Positions 4,552 through 34,268 of a stretch of DNA of 46,680 nt are shown here, one piece after another. The notes beneath the pieces were generated by a model, which saw nothing but the letters and a program-made list of their open reading frames with translations, did not search any database and was not told where the DNA came from. This DNA is from a bacterium (lineage in GTDB: Bacteria; Patescibacteriota; UBA1384; XYA2-FULL-43-10; JAKAMI01): contig JAKAMI010000005.1 in NCBI GenBank assembly GCA_021812945.1, positions 1-46,680 on the forward strand, written 5' to 3'. Position 1 is the stretch's first letter. Each line of letters starts with the position of its first letter. The translations under genes were made by a program, and so were the position numbers.

Positions 4552-4595
4552 AACTATAAGTTTTGATTTTTGACTTTTGACTTTTGATTTAAATA

Positions 4596-9892: not shown

Positions 9893-10198
9893 AATACCTC
9901 CCAGTATATTTGCTTTAAGTATATCGAATAATCAAAATTTGCAAAATGTTTGTTCATGTAAATCATCGAAAAGTAGGAGGTGTCAAGCTAACCCACATCC
10001 GATGTGGGTTAGCTTGACACCTCCTACCGACGACGGCTGGGGCGGTGGAGTTGCGACTGGTGAATTGGGACTGAGCGGATCATAGTGAAAGCGGTGGCCT
10101 GCTCTTGGTTTTAGAATCAAAAAAACCGCTGTCCACGGAATTGATTAGTACTTTCGTGTGTTATTTGTAGTTTCGCCAAGGAATCCGCCTTTGGCAAA
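9893..10198. other. Gene-free gap between comM and the second DHH gene
   Basis: Apart from the 55-nt palindrome at 9973-10027 no structured or coding element is supported. Short open frames here cross the palindrome and have no ribosome-binding site. Confidence 0.6.
9973..10027 (-). terminator. 55-nt perfect palindrome (27-bp arms, 1-nt centre), terminator-like
   Basis: Arms 9973-9999 and 10001-10027 are exact reverse complements around a single C at 10000. On the minus strand the stem is followed by TTTTCG. It lies 170 nt after the stop of the DHH gene at 10199-11614 and probably ends that transcript. Its tips (AAAAGTAGG...CCTACC) match the terminator-like hairpin at 15866-15889. Confidence 0.7.
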
Positions 10199-14616: not shown

Positions 14617-14679
14617 TTTCAGAATGTTTGTGAGAGTGTAAATTTCCCCTCCTTCCCGCACCAAGTGCGGGAATAACCA

Positions 14680-14894
14680 ATAACCAATTTCCAATAATCA
14701 GGAGACAACCAATATCCAATACCCAATAACCAAATTTGCTTCCTTGTTTGAATTTTGAAAATTGGTTATTGAAAATTAACTGGTTATTGTATCTTGATTA
14801 TTGGTGATTGTTCGTTTCTTGTTTCTTGAGATTTTGATATCAATCTGTGCTCAATCGGTGAATGAAATCAGTGGGTCTATCCCCTTGAATTGTA
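14680..14894. repeat. Low-complexity CCAATAACC/GGTTATTG tract upstream of the DUF2207 gene
   Basis: Repeated CCAATAACCAAT words at 14680-14740 are followed by complementary GGTTATTG words at 14760-14800, which can form one large stem. An AATCAGTGGGTC repeat piece precedes the holA stop. Confidence 0.5.
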
Positions 14895-16418: not shown

Positions 16419-17729
16419 CTACTTGCTCGCCGCCCAGTTGTCTCCGATCCCGACCTCGACTTTTATCGGCACACAAAGTTTGACCACGTTTTCCATCACT
16501 TCTTCCATAAGCTTGGCCACTTCTTTGGCCTGTTTTTCCGGACACTCCACCACCAGCTCGTCGTGAACGGTTAGGATTAGGCGGGGTCTGGCATCCATGT
16601 CATTCTGAGGCAAAGCCGAAGAATCCTTTTGTTTTTGATTTTTGATATCTAATTTTTGATTTAGTGTTATCATCGCAAGTTTGAGGATCTCGGCAGCTGA
16701 GCCTTGAATCGGCGTGTTGACCGCCATCCGTTCGTCGGCCTCCCGAAGAATCCGGTTGTCCGATTTGATGTTGAAAAGTTTCCGCTTGAAACCGAAGATC
16801 GTCTCCACCGCTCCGGTTTTTCTGGCCCTGTAAGTCGTCTCCTCAATGTATTCCTTGATCCCCTGATGGTTGTGGAAATACTCGAAAATGAATTTGGCCG
16901 CCATCTCCTGAGGAATATTCAAAGCCTGCGATAAGCCGAAGGGACTCATGCCATACAAAACGCCGAAGTTGATGGTCTTGGCAAAGCGTCGTTCCTCCTT
17001 GGAGATTTTCCCCTCCGGTTTGTGAAATAAAAGACTGGCGGTGCGAGTGTGAACATCGATGTTCTTGTTGAAAGCATCCATCATCTGCCGGTCGCCGGAA
17101 AAGCAGGCGATGATGCGTAATTCTATCTGCGAGTAGTCTGCCGAGACTAGCTTGTTACCCTTACCTGCCACAATGGTTTTCCGAATATCGGCGCCGTAGG
17201 TCCCCTTGATCGGGATATTTTGCAGGTTTGGCTCGCTTGATGAAATACGTCCGGTGCGAGCGTCTTGAGCGTAGTGGGTATGTAAACGATCCCGCTCATC
17301 AACCAGCTTCGGTAAAGGCTCCAAGTAGGTCGAAACCAGCTTAGTAAACTCGCGATATTTTAGAATCTTGGGAATGGCTGGATGAGCATGTTTGATCTTG
17401 TAGAGCTCCCCGGCGGCGGTAGAATAGCCGGATTGGGTTCTGCGAATGTCTTCGGTCGGTAATTTCAGTTGATTGAACAATAGGTCCGCCAGCTGGCTCG
17501 GCGAGTCCAGGTTGATCTCAGTCCCCAGATCACTGAGAATATCTTTTTTGAGCTTGTCTATTCTTCGTCCGACCTGCCTGTTTAGCTGTTTGATTCTGTC
17601 AACATCAATCAACACCCCGGTCTTTTCCATCTCCCGCAAAACCGGCTCGACACGTCTAAAAATCTGTTCCGACGAAATGTCCGGCACCAGACAACAATCT
17701 TTATTTTTCTTCTCACAGGGACACAACAT
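16419..17729 (-). CDS. polA: DNA polymerase I, polymerase domain as a separate gene
   Basis: A 436-residue family A polymerase with motif A (DYSQIELR, Asp198), motif B (RRFAKTINFGVLYG, near 248-260) and motif C (VHDELVVE, His389-Asp390). The thumb begins soon after the N-terminus (VEPVLREMEKTGVLIDV near 27). No 3'-5' exonuclease domain is present, and the 5' nuclease domain is encoded by the next gene upstream (17879-19039). Residues 361-380 are encoded by dispersed-repeat sequence, just before motif C. The N-terminus carries a small cysteine cluster (LCPCEKKNKDCC), possibly metal-binding. It does gap-filling synthesis in repair and Okazaki-fragment maturation. Confidence 0.92.
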   Translation of the reverse strand: MLCPCEKKNKDCCLVPDISSEQIFRRVEPVLREMEKTGVLIDVDRIKQLNRQVGRRIDKLKKDILSDLGTEINLDSPSQLADLLFNQLKLPTEDIRRTQSGYSTAAGELYKIKHAHPAIPKILKYREFTKLVSTYLEPLPKLVDERDRLHTHYAQDARTGRISSSEPNLQNIPIKGTYGADIRKTIVAGKGNKLVSADYSQIELRIIACFSGDRQMMDAFNKNIDVHTRTASLLFHKPEGKISKEERRFAKTINFGVLYGMSPFGLSQALNIPQEMAAKFIFEYFHNHQGIKEYIEETTYRARKTGAVETIFGFKRKLFNIKSDNRILREADERMAVNTPIQGSAAEILKLAMITLNQKLDIKNQKQKDSSALPQNDMDARPRLILTVHDELVVECPEKQAKEVAKLMEEVMENVVKLCVPIKVEVGIGDNWAASK

Positions 17730-17788
17730 AATAAGTTATGGATAGCTAATAAAGCTAATGGCTAATAACGAATGATCTATTTTGTTCT

Positions 17789-17858
17789 GTCATTCTGAGC
17801 GACTAGCGAAGAACCTTCCGAGACAGATCCTTCGGCTCGATGACTCGCTCAGGATGAC
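17789..17858. repeat. Dispersed repeat sitting at the polA split point
   Basis: GTCATTCTGAGCG...CTCAGGATGAC element in the 149-nt gap between the two polA genes. It belongs to the family at 11837-11893. Confidence 0.7.
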
Positions 17859-17878
17859 GGGAAATACAAGGCTTGCAA

Positions 17879-19039
17879 TTATAACAGTTTCAACTGTTGG
17901 TTCTTCTTTTGAGCCTCAGCCTCAGGTTTTTCGGTTTCTTGGTTCTTCGGTCCTTCAGTCCTGCTCGCCCTCCCAAATCTGGCGAGCAACGAACGAAAAT
18001 TCAGTTTTTCGAACAGCAGCCGTAATTTCTCCTTATCGTACTCTCCCCATTTCAAATCTTCAAGAGTGAACTCCACCGGCACATCTTTGTGGATGGTCGC
18101 GAGCTCCCGGGAAAGATAGGCCTGATCTTTGTGTTTTATGAGTAAATCTTTGATCCGCGGTTTAATTGCACCTGTTGTGTCATTCCCGCGAAGGCGGGAA
18201 TCTGCTAATTGATTGGGGAGATTCCCACCTTCGCGGGAATGACCAGAGTTTTGCGACTTGTTCTCTGGACTTTTGGACTCCTTGACTTTTAGACTTTCAT
18301 AAATTCGGTCTAAAGACCCGAATTTATGAATAAGCTCCGTTGCCGTTTTGTCACCGATCCCCGGGACTCCGGGGATATTGTCTGAGGCGTCGCCGGCCAA
18401 GGCCTTGAGATCAACAAAATCCTCCGGCTCTAAGTCGTATTTGGTCTTGATGACATCACGATTAATAATGCGCGGACCGTTTGCACCCTGCTTTAGATCA
18501 TAAACAAAAACATCGCCGTTGACCAACTGGAAGGTATCTTTGTCCCCCGTCACTATGTAGATCTTAACACCAACACTGCCATTCCCGTCTCTCTTGCCGT
18601 CATTCCCGCGAAAGCGGGAATCTGCTAATTGATTGGGGAGATTCCCACCTTCGCGGGAATGACAAAAAGTAGAGCTCAGTCTTTTCACCACCGTCCCAAT
18701 AACATCATCTGCTTCGTACCCTTGCATTTCCAAAACTTTGATACCAAAAGTTTCCACCAGTTGCTTTATAACCGGAATTTGATCGTATAGTTCCTGGTCA
18801 GCCTTGACTCTAGTAGATTTGTAGTCTTCAAATTTGTGGTGGCGAAAAGTCGGGCCGGCCAGATCAAAAGAGCAGACTATGTATTCCGGTTTTAGGTCCT
18901 CGATAACACGAATCAAGGTCAAGGCGAACCCGTAAACCGCATTAGTCGGGTTGCCCTCCGGATCAGTAAAAGTTTTTGGCATAGAGTGATACGCCCGATG
19001 CACCACCGCGTTGCCGTCAATCAAGACTAGATTATTCAT
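17879..19039 (-). CDS. polA: 5'-3' exonuclease (PolA N-terminal domain) as a separate gene
   Basis: A 386-residue FEN-type 5' nuclease: DGNAVVHRAYHSMP near 8, SFDLAGPTFRH near 58, GYEADDVIGT near 107, VTGDKDTF near 162 and the helix-hairpin-helix AGDASDNIPGVPGIGDKTA near 206. Metal-binding aspartates are present. It removes RNA primers and flaps. Two nearly identical 65-bp palindromic repeats are translated in frame at about residues 126-148 and 266-288 (SREGGNLPNQLADSR each time). The tail (about 360-386) is glutamine/lysine/glutamate-rich and ends where a normal PolA would enter its 3'-5' exonuclease domain. There is no Shine-Dalgarno; an extended -10 lies 6 nt before ATG 19039, so a leaderless mRNA is likely. 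Confidence 0.9.
   Translation of the reverse strand: MNNLVLIDGNAVVHRAYHSMPKTFTDPEGNPTNAVYGFALTLIRVIEDLKPEYIVCSFDLAGPTFRHHKFEDYKSTRVKADQELYDQIPVIKQLVETFGIKVLEMQGYEADDVIGTVVKRLSSTFCHSREGGNLPNQLADSRFRGNDGKRDGNGSVGVKIYIVTGDKDTFQLVNGDVFVYDLKQGANGPRIINRDVIKTKYDLEPEDFVDLKALAGDASDNIPGVPGIGDKTATELIHKFGSLDRIYESLKVKESKSPENKSQNSGHSREGGNLPNQLADSRLRGNDTTGAIKPRIKDLLIKHKDQAYLSRELATIHKDVPVEFTLEDLKWGEYDKEKLRLLFEKLNFRSLLARFGRASRTEGPKNQETEKPEAEAQKKNQQLKLL
18179..18243. repeat. 65-bp palindromic repeat inside the 5' exonuclease gene, copy 1
   Basis: Ends GTCATTCCCGCG / CGCGGGAATGAC are inverted, with an inner GGCGGGAATC...GATTCCCACC pair. It is almost identical to 18599-18663, in the same orientation and reading frame, 420 nt away. 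Confidence 0.9.
18599..18663. repeat. 65-bp palindromic repeat inside the 5' exonuclease gene, copy 2
   Basis: Differs from copy 1 at one visible base (AAAGCGGG versus AAGGCGGG). It is read in frame as part of the protein. Confidence 0.9.
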
Positions 19040-23384: not shown

Positions 23385-24308
23385 ATGCGAGAGTACGAAC
23401 TGGTATTCCTAGTTGCCGATAATGTCGCCGAAGATAAGCAGGCGGCCGTTTTGGATAAGATTAAAAAACTGATCACCGAGGCCGGCGGCTCCGTCGCTAA
23501 AGCCGAAAATCTTGGCCGCCGACGCTTGGCGTACGAGATCAAAAAGAATGAATTTGCCACTTACCATGTGGTAAATTTCAAGGTTGAAGGCAAAGAACTC
23601 CAAGAAATTGAGCATGATATTCGTCTGATCCAAGAAGTTTTGCGGCATCTGATAGTTCTAAGAAGCGTCGAGCATGTCTCGATCCTTGAAGAAAAACTTG
23701 AAGCTGCGAGCGAAAAAGAAATTGCCGAAGCGATCGGTGGCGAGAGAAGCGTCGAGCAGGTCGAAGGCGAAACCGAAGCCAGCTATGACCTGATGGCCAA
23801 GAGAGATAATCAGTCCGAAGTCCTTGAGTCCAAAAGTCCGGAAGGAATATCTCAATCCGAAGTTCTAAGCCCCGATCTCAAGGAAAAAAGTGCGGCTGTT
23901 GTTGAATCAGGCGATGGAATTTTAGAGGAAAAGATCGAGAAGTCGGCCAAAAAAGTCAAGAAGCCGCAAGTAAAGAAAACTGTCGAAAAAGTCGAAACTG
24001 AAGAAACAGTCGAAGGTGATAAAGTCGTCATTCCTGCCTCTTCACTTGTCATTCCTGCGAAGGCAGGAATCCAGACTGGATCCCGGATTAAGTCCGGGAT
24101 GACAGAAAAAATCACGACAGACACAAAAGAAAAAGTTACCGAAGAAGTCAAATCAAAAACCGAAAAAGCAGAATCGAAAAAGAAACCGGCTCTAGAGAAC
24201 CGTCCTGAGCAAGTCAGCGAGTCGAAGGATCACAAGGCCGAGGACGAAGCCGAACGCCTCAAGAAACTCGACGACAAACTGGCCGATATTTTAGGAGACG
24301 ACTTATAA
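23385..24308 (+). CDS. rpsF: 30S ribosomal protein S6 with very long charged tail
   Basis: A 307-residue protein. Residues 1-95 are S6 (MREYELVFLV, GRRRLAYEIKKNEFATYHVVNF, LRHLIVLRSV, quoted in parts). Bacterial S6 normally has 95-135 residues. Here about 200 extra residues follow, rich in Lys, Glu, Ser and Val. They include SPEGISQSEVLSPD words and an in-frame palindromic repeat (VIPAKAGIQTGSR near 222). S6 binds S18 on the 30S platform. The start at 23385 is fixed by AAGGAG 7 nt upstream; an earlier ATG at 23325 lacks one. The gene order rpsF-rpsR-ssb is the widespread bacterial one. Confidence 0.93.
   Translation: MREYELVFLVADNVAEDKQAAVLDKIKKLITEAGGSVAKAENLGRRRLAYEIKKNEFATYHVVNFKVEGKELQEIEHDIRLIQEVLRHLIVLRSVEHVSILEEKLEAASEKEIAEAIGGERSVEQVEGETEASYDLMAKRDNQSEVLESKSPEGISQSEVLSPDLKEKSAAVVESGDGILEEKIEKSAKKVKKPQVKKTVEKVETEETVEGDKVVIPASSLVIPAKAGIQTGSRIKSGMTEKITTDTKEKVTEEVKSKTEKAESKKKPALENRPEQVSESKDHKAEDEAERLKKLDDKLADILGDDL
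24049..24105 (+). repeat. Palindromic repeat inside rpsF
   Basis: GTCATTCCTGCGAAGGCAGG followed by ATCCCGGATTAAGTCCGGGAT and GACA, read in frame as VIPAKAGIQTG... It is related to the 65-bp elements in polA and to 31858-31927 in leuS. Confidence 0.8.
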
Positions 24309-25314: not shown

Positions 25315-25452
25315 TTCAATTGAAAATTGAACTAAACAATGATCAATTATCAAGTATCAATGGTCAAGATTTGATCCGGCTGGTGTTCTCACTCTAACTG
25401 ATTCTTGAAAATTGATACTTAACTGATAATTGAGACTTGATACTTGAAAATT

Positions 25453-31131: not shown

Positions 31132-34100
31132 ATGGAAAAGTATGACCCGGCTCGGATCGAGCAAAAATGGCAGCAGATTTGGGACGAGAACGCCGACAAA
31201 TGGCGAGCTAAGGATTTCTCCGACAAACCCAAATTTTACACTCTTTTTGAATTCCCCTACCCCTCAGGGGATGGTCTTCATATGGGACACTTGCGCGGTC
31301 AGACGGCTGTCGATGTCTTTGCCCGCAAGAAGAGACTGGAAGGTTATAACGTTATGACTCCGATCGGTTGGGACTCTTTCGGTTTACCGACCGAGAACTA
31401 CGCCATCAAGTACAAAATCCAGCCCTCAGTGGCAACTAAGGAAAATATTGCCAAGATTACCAAGCAGGAGAAGATGCTGGGATATTTTCTCGACTGGGAC
31501 AGAGAAATCGATACCTCTGATCCCAAATATTATCGCTGGACTCAGTGGATCTTTTTGCAACTTTTCAAGCACGGACTAGCCTACAAAGCCGACATACCGA
31601 TAAACTGGTGTCCCAAAGACAAGATCGGTTTGGCCAACGAAGAAGTGATCGATGGCAGGTGCGAGCGATGCGGCGCTTTGGTTATCAAAAAGAAAGTCAG
31701 CCAATGGATGCTCCGCATCACTAAGTACGCAGATAAATTATTGGATGGATTGAAAGATCTTGATTTCCCCGAACGGGTCAAGACCCAGCAAATAAACTGG
31801 ATCGGTCGCTCAAAAGGCGCAAAAATCCGCTTTGACATAATTCCAACAGCCACCTCTGTCATTCCTGCGAAAGCAGGAATCCAGACCTCCGATTCAGACT
31901 GGATCCCGGGTCAAGCCCGGGATGACAATAACGGTAGACGGATTACTGATAACAAATTTCTTGAGGTCTTTACTACGCGGCCCGACACGCTATTTGGGGC
32001 GACTTTCATGGTGGTATCGCCGGAACATAATGTTATCTCAAATCTCAGACCTCAAATCTCAAACTTACATGAAGTCGATTCTTACATTGATCAAGCCAAG
32101 TGTAAATCTGACCTTGAAAGAACGGAGTTGAACAAAGATAAAACAGGCATTGAAATAAAGGGTATTAAGGCCGTAAACCCGATCAACGGGGAAGAAATTC
32201 CGATTTTTATTGCCGATTACGTACTGTCCACATACGGTACCGGCGCGATAATGGGTGTACCGGCCCACGACGAACGCGACTGGGAATTTGCCAAGAAGTA
32301 CGACCTCGAAATCAAGCAAGTCGTGGCTCCGTTTTATACCACTACGGCCGGAGAAGACGCAATAAGACCGGACAAAGAGACGGTTGAGCGAAAGATGATC
32401 TGCGCTATAGTCAAGCACTGGAAAGAAGATAAGATCTACTGCCTCAACTGGGAAAAGTTCGGCTGGCACTCATTTGTCCTCGGAGGAATTGATGACGGCG
32501 AAACAGCTGAGGAAGCGGCCAAGCGTGAAGTAATCGAAGAAACCGGTTACCAAAACATTGAATCAATCGAAAAGATCAGTATTGTGACTCACAATAATTT
32601 TTTTGCCCGTCATAGAGACGAAAACCGGTATTCAATATCTGAATGTTTTATTGTCACACTCGCCGATGGCTCGCACCATGAGCCCGAAATTGAACATACC
32701 AAAAATCATACAGGAGTTTGGAAGGATAGAAGAGAAATCAAATCATATCTGAATCAGCCAAGTAATAAATACTACTGGGATCAGTACGAAAACGGCGAGA
32801 CTGCTTTCGATGGTCATGGCATCATCATCAACTCGGGGGAGTTCAACGGACAAAAATCCGAGGATGCAATAAAAAATATTACCGATAAACTAACCGAAGA
32901 TGGGTCCGGTGAATCGTCGGTATCATACAAACTCAGGGACTGGGTTTTCTCTCGTCAGCATTATTGGGGAGAACCGATGCCAATAGTTTTTTGCCAAAAT
33001 TGCAAAAAACTTATCGAAAATTCTAAACTCGAAATCCCAAACTCTAATAAAATCCAAAATCAAAAGTTCAAAATTCAAAGTCATAATTTTACCCTGGGCG
33101 AGATTCAAAACCCTGGCTGGATTGCTCTAAATGATGATAATTTACCCCTCGTGCTTCCTAAAGTCAAACACTATGAGCCGACAGATGATGGAAAATCACC
33201 TCTCTCAAAGATGACGGATTGGGTCGATACCACCTGCCCCAAATGTGGCGGTCCCGCAATGCGCGAGACTGATACAATGCCAAACTGGGCCGGATCTAGC
33301 TGGTATTTTCTCGCTTACGCTTTAAATCAAAATTCAGATCTTAAATCTCAAAATATTGGTAATACATTTAAAGAAAAACAAAAAGAACTGGCCTACTGGA
33401 TGCCGGTTGATGTATACGAGGGCGGGATGGAGCATACCACGCTTCACCTTTTATACTCGCGTTTCTGGAATGAGTTTTTGTATGATATCGGCGTTGCGCC
33501 GGTCAAAGAGCCTTACGAAAAGAGGGTTCCGCACGGTATTATCTTGGCCTCAGACGGAAGGAAGATGTCTAAATCCATAGGTAATGTAGTTAGGCCGGAT
33601 GAAATTGTAAGCAAATACGGCGCAGATACAGCCCGAACTTATGTCATGTTTATGGGGCCGCACGACCAGACCCTGGCCTGGGACGATAAGGGCATATCCG
33701 GCGTCTGGCGTTTTTTCAAAAAGGTCTGGGAAAATATGCAAAAAGCTGAGGGCAGCGCAGATCCTAAAATCGAGAGTATACTCCAGCATCTGATCGTCGA
33801 CGTTTCAAGCGACATTGAACAGTTTCAGCTCAATACTCCGGTCGCCAAGCTGATGGAGTTTAACAATATACTATTGAAACAAAAAACCGTCTCGAATGAG
33901 ACTAAATCAGTTTTTCTGCGGCTCCTATACCCTTTTGCCCCGCATCTTTGCGAGGAGCTTTGGGAAATTAATAAATTTGACGATAATATTTACCTCTCAA
34001 ACTGGCCAAAACCGGACAAGTCCAAGATTAAAGACGAGAAGGTAAATATTGTCATTCAGATAAACTCAAAGAATCGAGATATTATCGAGGTTGAATCGGG

Positions 34101-34231: not shown

Positions 34232-34268
34232 ATTTCTACTGTCCACCCGGCGGGTGGACAGTAGAAAT
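34232..34268. repeat. 37-nt perfect palindrome between leuS and the DUF177 gene
   Basis: Exact 18-bp arms (34232-34249, 34251-34268) around one G. No T-tract follows on the plus strand. It ends 1 nt before the -35 of the next promoter, so it could be an operator or a terminator-like repeat. Confidence 0.75.

Follow-up and report, generated by a model that had tools for sequence, protein, structure and literature searches.

The closest described systems to the repeats considered here are the CGTC REPs, the Rickettsia palindromic elements (RPE) and the REPIN/RAYT system. CGTC REPs were defined by Di Nocera, De Gregorio and Rocco in 2013 (PMC3733652). In the excerpts of that paper on which we rely, CGTC-1 is equated with dRS3 of Neisseria and RPE-6 of Rickettsia, the CGTC-1 elements of R. 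conorii being RPE-6, and CGTC REPs are described as having no dedicated transposase. According to the same excerpts, REPs within genes encode 20-30 aa, DNA polymerase I is among the genes struck, many REPs lie in replication and repair genes, and double insertions are found in uvrA and uvrB. Here we analyse a stretch of 46,680 nt (hereafter the window, to which all positions refer unless stated otherwise) from a draft genome of 0.91 Mb in 42 contigs that is 96% complete. The source organism appears to be Berkelbacteria-related.

Two palindromic inserts in a 5' nuclease gene

The host gene (17879-19039, reverse strand, 386 aa, Pfam PF02739 and PF01367) encodes a free-standing 5'-3' exonuclease or flap endonuclease, and the top Foldseek matches to its structural model were flap endonucleases, ExoIX and Taq. 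It contains two copies of a palindromic REP dimer, both on the reverse strand, with copy b at 18599-18663 (residues 126-147) and copy a at 18179-18243 (residues 266-287). The original prediction that these are one element in the same orientation and frame, 420 nt apart, proved exact in coordinates, orientation and spacing. The copies are identical at 64 of 65 nt (one mismatch), and their start-to-start distance of 420 nt is a multiple of three. Of the six reading frames, two lack stop codons across the element; copies a and b are translated in the same one of these, and it encodes HSREGGNLPNQLADSR. Each 65-nt copy consists of two REP hairpins in inverted orientation, with inverted arms of 25 nt (96% and 92% complementary) separated by 15 nt. 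The anatomy of an arm is a (C/T)GTC head, an 8-bp stem ATTCCCGC/GCGGGAAT and a 4-nt loop; ATTCCCGC-GAAG-GCGGGAAT folds alone into 8 bp and a 4-nt loop, and the second arm has one mismatch (CCCAC). The heads are TGTC and GGTC in copy a and CGTC and TGTC in copy b. Folding energies of the two copies as single-stranded DNA were -29.1 and -24.5 kcal/mol (z = -9.7 and -6.6 compared to shuffles), and folding is strong for both copies either as single-stranded DNA or as RNA.

The comparison with orthologues used the ten complete sequences of the order, that of the host included and the truncated G010 left out. As had been predicted, the inserts lie in an otherwise conserved nuclease. Both segments are absent from the nine other complete orthologues and are therefore insertions into a conserved nuclease, the comparison being at the level of the order, among relatives from outside the family of the host. 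Measured between fixed anchors, the nuclease core has exactly 265 residues in all ten orthologues and only two sites vary. Site 1 (residues 117-159, 18563-18691, reverse strand) has 43 aa here and 11-44 aa in the order, and site 2 (residues 248-291, 18167-18298, reverse strand) has 44 aa here and 7-44 aa in the order; the equivalent places in Taq are between residues 129 and 133 and between residues 221 and 223. Copy b lies in site 1 and copy a in site 2. The alignment to relatives breaks at residues 122-156 and 253-290, and relative to homologues free of inserts the excess is about 32 residues at site 1 and about 39 at site 2. The predicted gain of about 22 residues per copy holds for the elements themselves, but the element by itself does not account for the full length of the loops, which indicates that their history has further steps. 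Beside copy a, site 2 contains a second, weak dispersed repeat (18265-18295, no strand assigned) that encodes approximately KVKESKSPE and has five other partial matches in the genome (27-35 nt, E about 1e-4).

In an alignment of 15 sequences no invariant column falls inside either insert. In the AlphaFold2 model based on these 15 sequences, pLDDT exceeds 90 over most of the core and drops under 50 at residues 130-150, residues 260-288 and the C-terminal tail. The structural mapping that the original prediction called for therefore places both inserts in loops of very low confidence, which are probably disordered, the low pLDDT at the inserts partly reflecting the absence of homologues for them. 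A recombination between copies a and b that deletes 140 residues in frame is plausible. Such a deletion would take out the GDKD and GDxSDNIPG motifs and, in all, 17 of the 32 invariant positions, and should consequently inactivate the enzyme.

That the pair of repeats is an assembly artefact might be suspected from a draft in 42 contigs and from two nearly identical repeats of 65 bp, and we regard it as extremely improbable. A typical read is longer than either repeat, and the two differ at one base and have unique flanks; the frame is intact over 386 codons; and both copies are in the two variable loops, which would hardly be expected of an artefact.

At 16419-19039 of the window, DNA polymerase I is represented by adjacent 5' nuclease and polymerase genes, the latter being a separate gene of 436 aa for the polymerase domain (16419-17729, reverse strand, PF00476). 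A Pfam search recognised no 3'-5' exonuclease domain in these split genes. Polymerase matches also adjoin the exonuclease in relatives, so that the split is conserved throughout the order, and a repeat was rejected as its cause since the order shares the same split. Between the two genes there is a different palindromic repeat, GTCATTCTGAG...CAGGATGAC (17789-17858, no strand assigned), of the same kind as the site 2 insert of the relative G007.

Dispersal of the element in the host genome

A BLAST search with the 65-mer against its own genome resulted in 42 matches, which correspond to approximately two dozen places (both orientations of the palindrome being counted) that carry the whole element or half of it. 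The strict REP pattern GTCATTCCCGCNNNNGCGGGAAT had 26 matches in the host genome compared to 0 for the reversed control, and it is present in 8 of the 11 genomes of the order. Together, the BLAST matches and the difference between pattern and control show that the repeats are not due to chance. Spacers were found to be related among 13 aligned dimers or partial dimers. Heads of the other genomic copies are mostly TGTC and their tails mostly CCA or CTA. A search of Rfam returned only below-threshold chance matches to hairpins.

The two exonuclease copies are 98% identical to each other and at most 91% identical to any other genomic copy, and they have in common the changes TGCT, GGGGAG and CCCACC that are absent from the other aligned dimers. 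Because of this identity and these private changes, the two copies are sisters, each the nearest relative of the other, which suggests either local copying of one from the other or homogenisation of the two by gene conversion. Segmental duplication is ruled out as the origin of the pair by their outer flanks, which are dissimilar and have no extended sequence in common. The 0.91-Mb genome contains five Y1_Tnp (RAYT-like) transposase genes (L008-L012), and none of the five is flanked by a REP of the exonuclease type. With no transposase that can be linked to the element, it is solely its distribution that points to mobility.

An in-frame REP dimer, or a variant close to it, is also present in other genes of the host, namely tgt, prmC and a uvrD-like helicase gene, in which Pfam or PDB matches resume on either side of the insert. 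In tgt (L004, 1273-2613) there are two inserts, which belong to different repeat families, at residues of about 134-150 and 350-372. Within the window, a REP-type insert VIPAKAGIQTSDSDWIPGQARDDN is held in a stretch of leuS that could not be aligned to Thermus LeuRS (31840-31959, forward strand), and ribosomal protein S6, whose domain ends at residue 111, has in its long C-terminal tail another REP-type insert, recognised as an inverted repeat (24018-24082, forward strand). Other copies are intergenic or ahead of start codons, placement being judged from the stretches around REP matches.

Several further features of the window were observed. A NUDIX-like domain (PF00293, E 2.6e-11) is found within leucyl-tRNA synthetase at 32461-32739 (residues 444-536), and this stretch likewise gave no alignment to Thermus LeuRS. 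Perfect inverted repeats with arms of 27 and 18 bp and 1 nt between them are at 9973-10027 and 34232-34268, and may represent terminators or palindromic elements of another kind. Tandem arrays, degenerate and with a period of 7 nt, are at 14672-14733, 25399-25447, 4561-4587, 16627-16662 and 32035-32063; similar arrays can be seen by eye in the G001, G005 and G007 nuclease loops.

Inserts in the same two loops of relatives

Three further lineages have dispersed repeats in the same two loops that are unrelated to those of the host, and these loops have been occupied independently. The site 2 insert of G007, a palindrome of the kind mentioned above, has 27 matches in the G007 genome, and the AT-rich repeat in its site 1 has 23 matches in the same genome. 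For G001 there are 14 own-genome matches for site 2 and 16 for site 1, and for the repeat in site 2 of G005 there are 35; all counts for these three genomes include the query itself. The AT-rich loop repeats show, by eye, a period of 7 nt and are in part of low complexity, so that less weight attaches to their counts than to those of the palindromes. Site 2 of G031 has only two other copies in its genome and is a weak case. These counts do not extend to site 1 of G005 or to the lesser expansions of the loops in G004, G008 and G009. G005 and G007 belong to the same genus, their cores are 87% identical, and their inserts are unrelated in both loops.

We consider it very probable that selfish REP dimers of the CGTC-1 type spread in this genome and survive in the nuclease only in two permissive surface loops, where the frame is open and the length is divisible by three. 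The element would be a REPIN-like, non-autonomous palindromic repeat dispersed through a Berkelbacteria-related genome. Insertion would be roughly random and would probably proceed via a single-stranded hairpin, and most insertions within genes would be lost. Survivors would be those that combine a surface loop, a length divisible by three and an open frame, and would result in a neutral, disordered peptide.

With at least four repeat types at the same two positions, one may ask if the loops are preferred DNA target sites, beyond mere tolerance. This is very unlikely in our assessment, as it would demand one target preference from unrelated repeats, the flanks of the two copies have no extended sequence in common, and zero indels in the core are expected from purifying selection alone. 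A functional role, in which the inserts are retained for tuning the flap endonuclease, e.g. through lower activity and more mutation or recombination, was speculated on for REPs in replication and repair genes by Di Nocera and colleagues in the excerpts considered (PMC3733652). The abundance of REPs in such genes described there, and the presence of inserts in this nuclease in four or more lineages, are in line with it. We nevertheless judge it quite unlikely. The peptides are unrelated in sequence and origin between lineages, several relatives have little or no extra loop sequence, and tgt, prmC, leuS and the S6 tail, none of them repair genes, are also struck. The survival of selfish REP dimers in permissive loops could be extended by supposing that these loops are long-lived landing pads with fast turnover of repeats, as the unrelated inserts in both loops of two species of one genus would suggest, that the inserts modulate flap-endonuclease activity, and that the repeats feed back on replication fidelity in reduced genomes. 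We offer this extension as speculation and find it quite unlikely as a whole.

The locus is an example of CGTC-type REPs that code for protein in a very small genome of the candidate phyla. It is also a clean natural experiment, in which several unrelated selfish repeats have entered two loops of one enzyme that is free of indels elsewhere. Orthologues with and without inserts make the neutrality of intragenic palindromes directly testable.

Comparison with known repeat families

The exonuclease element fits the description of CGTC-1 REPs in the excerpts of PMC3733652, as far as can be judged from its sequence. CGTC-1 heads are described there as an unpaired CGTC, TGTC or CCTC, and three of the four heads of the two copies agree. 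The stem of 8 bp starting with A-T pairs and the loop of 4 nt are both present, as is the lack of a flanking transposase, none of the five Y1_Tnp genes adjoining an exonuclease-type REP. CGTC-1 elements are predominantly HH homodimers with a conserved spacer; the dimers here are inverted, with heads outward and related spacers, an arrangement that may correspond to HH, and the intragenic copies are within the 20-30 aa range. The differences concern the 3-nt tail, with a consensus of CCA in CGTC-1 and CTG/CTC in the two copies here (most other copies in the genome have CCA or CTA), the double insertion in a free-standing 5' nuclease, and the host, a Berkelbacteria-related genome of the candidate phyla, a group not encountered in those excerpts.

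Rickettsia palindromic elements resemble the exonuclease inserts in being palindromic DNA that is in frame in conserved genes and missing from orthologues, all of which was observed here. The analogy with them that the original prediction drew holds at the level of the family, because PMC3733652 equates CGTC-1 with RPE-6 and the element fits CGTC-1. According to the excerpts of that paper, RPE-1 is longer than the element here and, among RPEs, the name of CGTC element is given to RPE-4 and RPE-6 only; the likeness is one of published description. REPINs, built from GTAG REPs, share with our element the inverted REP pair, the related spacer and the presence of RAYT-type Y1_Tnp genes in the genome. 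However, the head here is GTC and not GTAG, and the exonuclease-type REP was not found beside any of the five Y1_Tnp genes; in both of these respects the element departs from a REPIN mobilised by a RAYT.

The prediction overstated how unusual two copies in one gene are, as the excerpts of PMC3733652 include double REPs in uvrA and uvrB, and tgt of the present genome has two different inserts. In one open literature library we found no report on REPs in Patescibacteria and no description of one pair of loops being used repeatedly by unrelated repeats, the latter being weak evidence of absence. The kind of element and its insertion within genes, even twice in one gene, are already known from these systems; what is newer is that the same loops have been occupied repeatedly.
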